Notes under the pieces: model-generated
The model's database searches: none
Told to the model about the DNA's origin: nothing
The model's input: only the letters and a program-made list of their open reading frames with translations
Source: Ignavibacteriaceae bacterium
GTDB lineage: Bacteria > Bacteroidota > Ignavibacteria > Ignavibacteriales > Ignavibacteriaceae
Assembly: GCA_013388545.1 (NCBI GenBank)
Contig: JACAFB010000015.1
Location: 1 to 64,000 of the forward strand
DNA length: 64,000 bases
Direction of reading: 5' to 3'
Position numbers and translations under genes: made by a program
In this document: positions 7,970 through 62,239 of the stretch, piece after piece
How the letters are laid out: each line of letters starts with the position of its first letter
Numbering within the stretch: position 1 is the first letter of the stretch

Positions 7970-7999
7970 AAAAAGGGCTTCATAATGAAGCCCTTTTTT
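7970..7999. terminator. Bidirectional intrinsic terminator
   Basis: AAAAAGGGCTTCA-taa-TGAAGCCCTTTTT between convergent genes. Confidence 0.9.
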
Positions 8000-8002
8000 A
8001 TT

Positions 8003-9127
8003 TTAATAATAGATATGCGTCTGGATTACAACCGAGTTATTTGTTACATCTGGATTTTCCATTTGAATTCTGTATTGAGGACGAATCTCGATGAAGCTGT
8101 AAGGGAAAATTTCAAATCCTAAAATAATTCGTGATAATTCATCTTTCGTTAATTTGTCACTGGGATCAAATCTGTCATATCGCGCCACGAACTCAAGTCC
8201 TTTAATTATTCGATATGATGCTTCTACCATCAGAGCTGTGGTAACTGATTCTGCAACAACATAATCTTTAGCCGTAACATATTCACCGAGAAGTGAAATA
8301 CCGCTTACTCCGAATCCTAAAAATCCCGCATACATATTTACATTATTGTAACCGCCAGTAGTGAAGTTTTTATCTTTAAAATTACTGAAAGAACCACCTA
8401 ACATCAGGTTAACATTTTCACCAATTGATGGTGTTAGTTGAAGACTTGCGGTATAAGATGGATCAGTTGCAAAAAGTTCTCTTCTTGGATTACCGACACT
8501 TGCTGTTAAAAAAGCGAATTCAGAAATGAAAATTCCTGCTTCAACTCCGGATTCAACGTAGTCGGGTGTGAAAATTAAACCCTGCCTTCCGCCTGTTGCA
8601 AATAATAATCCAAAATCGCCCGCCCTTGTATAAGCCGTATGATCATCCATTTTTATTCCGAAATTCGGACTGAAAGTACCTCCTTTAATGTAGCCGTCAT
8701 TGGGAAGTATCCGGGCTACTGCATAGCCTTCATAAACTCTTTGTATGAAATCATACCTTACGAGCAAAGAAATTTCCTCAGATAAATCTAAGCCGGTGTA
8801 AACAGAAGCTGCCATTCTTTGAAAATCAGACTGAGTAGTTGAATCGGAAGTTCTTACTAAAAACTGACCTCTCAAATCAAGTCCATAGCTTATATTCTCC
8901 CCTATCATATTGCTCATCTTAAAGTTTTCATTATTTGAAGACATCATCGCAAGGTTGTTTTTCCCAAATTTCCAACCGCCGGTGTTTCTTAAAGCCCCGC
9001 CACTCGGATTAACGTGGCAATCAATACACTTTCCTCCCATTCTAAGAGCAAATCTTGGAATAGAATAAGATTCAGAAATTAGTCCGATAATGAAAAGGAT
9101 ACAAAAAGCCTGAAAAAGTTTATTCAT
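8003..9127 (-). CDS. Outer-membrane beta-barrel with N-terminal monoheme c-type motif (Cyc2-like architecture)
   Basis: Signal peptide, IPRFALRMGGKCIDCHVNPSGGALRNTGGWKFG (CXXCH at 9014-9028), then amphipathic barrel-like strands ending in ...THIYY. Confidence 0.65.
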   Translation of the reverse strand: MNKLFQAFCILFIIGLISESYSIPRFALRMGGKCIDCHVNPSGGALRNTGGWKFGKNNLAMMSSNNENFKMSNMIGENISYGLDLRGQFLVRTSDSTTQSDFQRMAASVYTGLDLSEEISLLVRYDFIQRVYEGYAVARILPNDGYIKGGTFSPNFGIKMDDHTAYTRAGDFGLLFATGGRQGLIFTPDYVESGVEAGIFISEFAFLTASVGNPRRELFATDPSYTASLQLTPSIGENVNLMLGGSFSNFKDKNFTTGGYNNVNMYAGFLGFGVSGISLLGEYVTAKDYVVAESVTTALMVEASYRIIKGLEFVARYDRFDPSDKLTKDELSRIILGFEIFPYSFIEIRPQYRIQMENPDVTNNSVVIQTHIYY

Positions 9128-60619: not shown

Positions 60620-62239
60620 CTATTTCATCAAAATCATTTTCTTTGTATTTGAAAAACTTCCCGTCTGTATTTTGTAAATGTAAACACCGCTTACAAGTTT
60701 GCTTGCGTTAAATTTTACTTCGTACTTACCTGCAATTTTTTCTTCATTTACAAGTGTTGCCACTTCGTTTCCAAGCAAATCATAAACTTTCAATGTGACA
60801 TTACCAGTTACAGGTAACTGATAACTGATTACCGTGCTCGGGTTAAATGGGTTAGGATAATTCTGCATCAATGAATATTTACTAAATGAATAAATTCTGT
60901 TTTTTAATCCATCTTCAACGTTTACCGGGGAATTAAACTTAAGCCTGGCGAGAAATAGATTTTTTTCTCCACCAGTTACAGTGATTGTATCGAAGAGTGC
61001 GTTCTGACTTACAACGCCCGACACATAGAAACTCCCGTTATTATCTAAAATAATTCCACTTCCCGCATCGTAACCAACGCTTCCGGCAGATTTTGCCCAT
61101 TGAATTTCACCATTCTTATTATAGTTAAGAACAAAAATATCTTGATAATCAATTGCGTTTAGAATTACTCCATCCCCGAAATTAATTGTTCCTCTGAAAA
61201 ACCCGGTAATGCAAATATTTCCATCACTGCCGCAAGATAAGAAGTTTGAATTGCCGATGGTTGCATCTCCCAGATTGTTTCCCTGTGGAATCTCCTTCAG
61301 CCAGATATAATTCCCTTCAGGATCTATTTGGGTTACAAAAAAATCATAAACCCACTGAGGCCCATTTGCAAAAAAGCTCCCAAAGCTTGTTGAGCCTAAA
61401 AGATTTCCGCTCATATATGCATAACCAAAATTATCGGTTTCTATCTGCCAGGTCTGGGCAGAAATATCCTGAATAAAATTTACAAATTGTGCTATATCGT
61501 TGGAGTCATATTTCACTACATACTCTGTATATGTAAATGGAACAAGAGTATCCAGCCCGTTGAATGATGCTGGGTTTTGAAAAGAAAATCCGGTCACCCA
61601 AATATTTCCAAATAAATCCTGATCAATATCGCTTATGAGAGATACGCCGGATTGTTCAATAGTGGAAAGAACAGCTCCATCAGGACTTAACCGCAAAATT
61701 TTAGTATCGTAAGCCCACCTTGATAATCCTATCAGAAAATCATTTGAATATCCGTTTGACAAAGCAGACAACTCGTAGATATCAGAGGTGTATTCTGTTG
61801 CGTCTTTCAGCCAGAGCAAGTTCCCGGTGTCATTTAATTTTAAAATAAAGTTGCCTAATCCTGAACCTGAATGAATAAGCTGAGATGTTTCAACTGTAAT
61901 TGTGTCACTGTAAGAGCCGACACAGATAACATTATTATCCATATCAAGAATTATTTTAGAAACATCTGCTTTACCGAAAATTGTATTCTCCCATACTAAT
62001 GAATCTAAATCACTTCTTTTTTCAAGTTTCACATCACCCAAGGTTCCGAAATTATAACCCTCACGGAAATGTATAAGTCTTGCGCAGACAGGGTTCCCGG
62101 AATTATCAATTGCTGAAGGTGCATTTAAATACGATAGATTATATGGATAATTTGGAGATATTAAATTTACCCATTGATACGTTTGTCCGAATGTTGATGA
62201 ACATAAAAACGAAAAAGCGATTAAAAAATATCTTAACAT
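60620..62239 (-). CDS. Secreted beta-propeller-like (SBBP repeat) protein with T9SS type A sorting domain
   Basis: Repeated D..GN...G/S strands; C-terminal YPNPFNPSTVISYQLPVTGNVTLKVYDLLGNEVATLVNEEKIAGKYEVKFNASKLVSGVYIYKIQTGSFSNTKKMILMK. Confidence 0.92.
   Translation of the reverse strand: MLRYFLIAFSFLCSSTFGQTYQWVNLISPNYPYNLSYLNAPSAIDNSGNPVCARLIHFREGYNFGTLGDVKLEKRSDLDSLVWENTIFGKADVSKIILDMDNNVICVGSYSDTITVETSQLIHSGSGLGNFILKLNDTGNLLWLKDATEYTSDIYELSALSNGYSNDFLIGLSRWAYDTKILRLSPDGAVLSTIEQSGVSLISDIDQDLFGNIWVTGFSFQNPASFNGLDTLVPFTYTEYVVKYDSNDIAQFVNFIQDISAQTWQIETDNFGYAYMSGNLLGSTSFGSFFANGPQWVYDFFVTQIDPEGNYIWLKEIPQGNNLGDATIGNSNFLSCGSDGNICITGFFRGTINFGDGVILNAIDYQDIFVLNYNKNGEIQWAKSAGSVGYDAGSGIILDNNGSFYVSGVVSQNALFDTITVTGGEKNLFLARLKFNSPVNVEDGLKNRIYSFSKYSLMQNYPNPFNPSTVISYQLPVTGNVTLKVYDLLGNEVATLVNEEKIAGKYEVKFNASKLVSGVYIYKIQTGSFSNTKKMILMK

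Follow-up and report, generated by a model that had tools for sequence, protein, structure and literature searches.

A CXXCH heme-motif domain fused to a predicted outer-membrane barrel in an apparently undescribed Ignavibacteria protein family separate from Cyc2

The locus examined here lies within a 64,000-nucleotide stretch of an Ignavibacteriaceae genome (hereafter, the window), in which a reverse-strand open reading frame encodes a protein that an earlier note had described as a heme-motif domain fused to a barrel in a Cyc2-like layout. The following features were assigned at this locus:

8003–9127, reverse strand: open reading frame for the putative fused monoheme cytochrome/outer-membrane barrel protein (374 residues plus stop, ATG start; the coordinates include the stop codon)
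9062–9127, reverse strand: putative signal peptide, residues 1–22, recognized by eye from its hydrophobic core and a cleavage site between SYS and I
8942–9061, reverse strand: putative cytochrome region, residues 23–62, with the motif PRFA..xG..C..CHVNPxGG..RN..G, defined by family conservation and of low confidence in the AlphaFold model
9014–9028, reverse strand: CXXCH heme-attachment motif C34-I-D-C37-H38, invariant in 72/72 representatives and single in 80/80 full-length relatives
8813–8815, reverse strand: Met105, invariant (72/72 representatives), candidate distal heme ligand
8639–8641, reverse strand: His163, invariant (72/72 representatives), candidate distal heme ligand or substrate/metal site
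8015–8017, reverse strand: His371 of the final strand, near-invariant (71/72 representatives), candidate distal heme ligand
8009–8893, reverse strand: predicted 16-strand beta barrel, residues 79–373, from AlphaFold2, the model of a second member, Foldseek matches to OprP/OprO, and the profile match to OprO
8555–8671, reverse strand: long loop between strands 5 and 6, residues 153–191, with the conserved motif PxxG...DDHTxxTR, from two models and conservation
7970–7998, no strand assigned: stem-loop with T runs, from a consensus scan, in the interval between this gene and a convergent VWA-protein gene

The open reading frame and the heme-domain sequence quoted in the earlier note agree exactly with the window, and its account of the protein's layout from end to end was borne out. 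The N-terminus, MNKLFQAFCILFIIGLISESYS followed at the cleavage site (judged by eye) by IPRF, resembles a signal peptide; one CXXCH occupies residues 34–38; and the strand-rich region with an aromatic end corresponds to the predicted barrel, which terminates in ...HIYY. The gene is flanked by the convergent VWA-protein gene and by a divergent dxr–rseP pair. This pair is also found close by in about 30 related loci, a number that includes copies of a single genome. On weak evidence, the stem-loop could possibly be a terminator shared by the cytochrome-barrel gene and the VWA gene, the consensus scan around the gene having found one such element against 0.9 expected. A promoter scan around the gene returned sites no more numerous than in shuffled sequences. 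The protein had no direct match in Pfam, NCBIfam, or PDB sequences, and CXXCH was absent from all other open reading frames of the window.

Only two cysteines are present in the mature protein, both belonging to the CXXCH motif, while one further cysteine is located in the signal peptide. Shuffling of the mature sequence yielded CXXCH in 6 of 200,000 trials, and exactly one N-terminal CXXCH was found in all 80 full-length relatives collected by phmmer with no selection on the motif; the motif is therefore not a product of chance. Its context in these 80 relatives reads [LI]PRFA..xG..C..CHVNPTGG..RN..G. Apart from the start methionine, the conserved cysteines, histidines, and methionines among the 72 representatives comprise C34, C37, H38, M105, and H163, each invariant, together with H371, which is retained in 71. 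The window protein has three histidines in total (38, 163, and 371), all of them conserved, with H163 belonging to the long loop's DDHT motif and H371 to the last strand. Judging from the sequence, a covalent heme c would be carried at the predicted CXXCH site, with one of M105, H163, and H371 likely serving as its distal ligand.

Structure prediction, which the earlier note had called for, returned 16 strands in two AlphaFold models. The AlphaFold2 model of the window protein, built from 62 sequences, displayed a porin-like topology (pLDDT 81, pTM 0.80) with its longest loop between strands 5 and 6, and a second member, ~34% identical, was likewise modeled with 16 strands. The best fold match in the PDB was OprP (2O4V; Foldseek rank 1, TM 0.61 by query length), with OprO (4RJW) in fourth place, and the family profile also retrieved OprO by sequence, weakly (E 6.5e-4). 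The predicted structure thus has the OprP-type fold of the Porin_O_P (OprO/OprP) porins; the corresponding Pfam model did not match the window protein and matched 1 of 35 members (7.8e-4). Unlike the window protein, the phosphate-selective OprO and OprP have no heme domain, and their identity to it is about 13%. A viral fold search with the window protein returned generic porins only. The long loop may fold into the barrel like L3 of porins. The cytochrome region was modeled free of heme and at low confidence (pLDDT about 50).

Cyc2, for which heme binding has been shown, is described by the motif AXPXFAR[Q/K][T/Y] upstream and PXL downstream of CXXCH, a length of at least 365 aa, and a porin barrel, and OprO and OprP are the reported templates for Mariprofundus Cyc2 (PMC8406198). 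The window protein shares with Cyc2 a signal peptide (by eye), the single N-terminal CXXCH following it, a predicted 16-stranded OprO/OprP-like outer-membrane porin, and PX[FY]A before the heme motif; in many relatives a cytochrome gene adjoins, and the length filter of FeGenie (>=365 aa) is passed by the window protein (374 aa) and by 128 of the 154 member rows, which include near-copies and number 122 after thinning. To this extent the Cyc2-type layout proposed earlier stands; membership in Cyc2 does not. The upstream motif is absent from the window protein, which reads SIPRFALRM, and even its relaxed form PX[FY]AR[QK][TY] occurs in 0/154 members, as does PXL four residues downstream of CXXCH, where the window protein reads CHVNPSGG; instead of R[Q/K][T/Y] and PXL, the family carries CHVNPTGG..RN..G. 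Against a Cyc2 HMM that we built from 22 sequences, the window protein scored E 0.24. In a quick tree of 100 rows, arbitrarily rooted and with some long branches, a branch with SH-aLRT 99 set the family apart from the other rows, and the family did not group with the Cyc2 sequences. Profile comparisons, whose percentages here and below are pairwise scores taken without a database background, aligned the cytochrome domain to that of Cyc2 proper at 96% and the barrel to the Cyc2 barrel at 0.4%. Masking the three CXXCH columns reduced the cytochrome-domain match to 41%, which weakens this likeness. By the published definition the window protein is not Cyc2, and its sequence resembles Cyc2 proper in the cytochrome domain only; the earlier note was right to treat homology to Cyc2 as not yet established.

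Genes that do carry the Cyc2 motifs are present in the class. ARQT-type Cyc2 genes were observed at L145:1-1104 (reverse strand) and L189–L202, and the genomes of L145 and L147 also carry the window family. One ARQT-type Cyc2 of the class matches proteobacterial plasmid genes at 31–38% identity, and a c-type cytochrome gene lies just downstream in five of six of those plasmid genes; the window protein itself matched no plasmid sequence. A further set, which we named FARKY-type, is the Cyc2-motif family of Ignavibacteria. PXL was present in 17/17 ARQT-type and 16/16 FARKY-type sequences, a result that alone is independent, since both sets were sorted by their upstream motif. The window's own genome encodes a FARKY-type protein that meets the Cyc2 motifs (392 aa; contig C68, L219 5795-6973), with a tetraheme cytochrome gene directly before it, the two genes together spanning L219 4334-6973; several further genomes of the class have this gene pair as well. 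One survey (PMC8478452) reports that Ignavibacteriales carry genes for iron oxidation as well as for iron reduction and that Cyc2 cluster 3 dominates at most sites.

Comparison of the window family with the FARKY-type family revealed a distant relationship over the full length of the sequences. Their profiles align full-length at 98.6%, and the barrels alone at 92.8%, as opposed to <1% for three unrelated families. The two families share a monoheme N-terminal domain followed by a barrel, but the FARKY-type proteins meet the Cyc2 motifs, usually follow a tetraheme cytochrome gene, and are without the DDH motif and CHVNPTGG. The heme module further shares CxxCHxxPxGGGxRNxFG with Temptin_C-type CXXCH proteins (97%, or 89% with CXXCH masked), whereas two unrelated cytochrome families scored <5%; the Temptin_C-type proteins differ in having no barrel and in possessing a C-terminal type IX secretion domain. 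An outer-membrane barrel is also combined with c-type heme in MtrCAB, MtoAB, and PCC; there the cytochromes are multiheme, separate proteins seated in barrels of 26 strands (PMC8406198). The window protein is of another build, with one heme motif fused to 16 predicted strands rather than a multiheme cytochrome with a separate large barrel.

Relatives of the window protein were found in 106 of 149 sampled Ignavibacteria genomes, and in a 297-genome sample of the phylum every full-length match fell inside Ignavibacteria. Four weaker matches lay in other parts of the phylum: three heme-free porins that consist of the barrel alone, and one sequence (G368), possibly a truncated member, whose match spans the cytochrome region at the end of a contig. 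Named records with the family are nearly all Ignavibacteria or Bacteroidetes MAGs, plus a few odd labels; one contig filed as Candidatus Hodarchaeum mangrovi (L123) bears a member at 52% identity and is probably a misbinned Ignavibacteria contig. A scan of genome contigs with the single window protein confirmed no relatives, and 78 loci were obtained with a closer alignment as query. Heme-free porins with barrels that fit the family profile (L256–L263) were observed in and outside the class, and it is possible that such porins were the source of the barrel before fusion. No published description of this cytochrome-barrel family was found in the open-access papers searched; the family is apparently undescribed and forms its own clade, separate from Cyc2.

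In thirteen family-level groups, a redox gene lies within two genes of the family gene and in the same direction, and these neighbors are of four protein kinds, for each of which one example was checked with Pfam. A diheme CytoC_RC-type protein was found in group f9, PSCyt1-type monoheme cytochromes in f4, f13, f18, and f19, and Rieske proteins in f7, f8, f15, f16, f20, f21, and f22. In group f2, the gene directly upstream encodes a Temptin_C protein that has both a CXXCH and a type IX tail, mostly at gaps of <170 bp (L034:8725-9399, L272:8185-8913, and similar loci). Adjacent same-strand genes were redox genes in 23/82 cases, against 6/618 among genes at least three places away in the same loci, a comparison that is uncorrected for shared ancestry and whose background takes both strands. 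Four redox kinds in thirteen groups are hard to explain by one event. No redox gene lies beside the window copy or beside the sampled members of its own group, f1.

The window's own genome encodes cytochrome c assembly proteins and a heme-copper oxidase, together with more than 100 type IX tails (128 matches), one of them at 60620-62239 in the window. A search of this genome for the N-terminal part of the Temptin_C partner did not recover that protein. All matches of the Temptin_C search fell in the type IX tail region, apart from a weak hit (E 0.0027) that lay on the window protein's own heme region. Since the genome is about 83% complete, such absences are weak evidence.

Taken together, we consider it probable that the protein is an outer-membrane cytochrome-porin, Cyc2-like in layout but of a separate family, that exchanges electrons with periplasmic carriers. 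From the observed conservation, the predicted architecture, the separate clade, and the relatives' redox neighbors, we infer heme attachment, orientation, and electron flow as follows. The protein would be exported and would receive one covalent heme c at C34/C37/H38, and its 16-stranded, OprP-like barrel would insert in the outer membrane with the small cytochrome domain at the periplasmic mouth. Single electrons could then be exchanged between the heme and either a surface partner or a small soluble compound that has entered the barrel, and the heme would pass them to or from a periplasmic carrier. In other lineages this carrier may be the product of the neighboring redox gene (a diheme cytochrome, a monoheme cytochrome, or a Rieske protein), and in the window lineage some other carrier. 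Against this cytochrome-porin role stand the window copy and sampled f1 members, with no redox gene beside them, and the poorly modeled cytochrome region, which leaves the heme position and its ligands as candidates. A more specific version of the same explanation, in which Fe2+ enters the barrel of a divergent Cyc2-type Fe(II) oxidase and reduces the heme, with electrons moving inward to a terminal oxidase, is unlikely. It accords with the shared architecture, fold template, and cytochrome profile alignment, with the heme-copper oxidase of the genome, and with Ignavibacteriales MAGs credited with Cyc2 cluster 3 hits, genes unspecified, in one survey (PMC8478452). However, both Cyc2 motifs are missing throughout the family, the barrels do not align, the cytochrome match falls once CXXCH is masked, a Cyc2-like gene true to the motifs is already present in the genome, and the family occurs in most of a class whose bacteria are mainly heterotrophs.

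Electrons might instead run outward, the heme taking them from the periplasm and giving them to a surface partner for the reduction of an extracellular acceptor; in one lineage that partner would be a type IX-secreted cytochrome. We regard this as somewhat unlikely: the upstream Temptin_C gene in f2, the abundance of type IX tails in the genome, and the iron reducers and anode dwellers among Ignavibacteria (PMC7399161) speak for it, but the Temptin_C partner is restricted to one group and was not found in the window's genome by its N-terminal part, and one heme alone cannot span the membrane. That the protein is a solute porin outside electron transport, its cytochrome-like plug serving as a gate driven by redox state or dependent on heme, seems improbable given the redox neighbors in thirteen groups and the strict retention of CXXCH, even though the fold is that of substrate-specific OprP/OprO porins, heme-free porins share the barrel profile, and the long loop, which often forms the constriction in porins, holds the best-conserved motif of the barrel. 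It is very improbable that the CXXCH is heme-free and binds another metal or acts as a thiol-disulfide site. No cytochrome Pfam model matches and heme attachment is read from sequence, yet the histidine is as invariant as both cysteines, c-type maturation genes are present, the neighbors are cytochromes and Rieske proteins, and the family is related to Cyc2, itself a demonstrated heme protein (PMC8406198).

The family is present in most sampled genomes of a class common in sediment and groundwater. Cyc2 serves as a genomic marker of iron oxidation, and surveys of iron genes that relax the Cyc2 motif could take this family for Cyc2. We tentatively entertain, as rather doubtful, the broader idea that this is a second family of fused cytochrome-porins, spread through the class, distinguished by a heme-domain motif of its own, and coupled time and again to different redox partners; in one lineage it would build a path of two cytochromes across the outer membrane, the other being exported by type IX secretion. 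The few invariant residues (M105, H163, and H371) make the predicted heme site directly testable. The family may allow Ignavibacteria to pass electrons across the outer membrane and, if heme binding and electron transfer hold true, outer-membrane electron exchange in the class would be wider than searches for multiheme cytochromes show.
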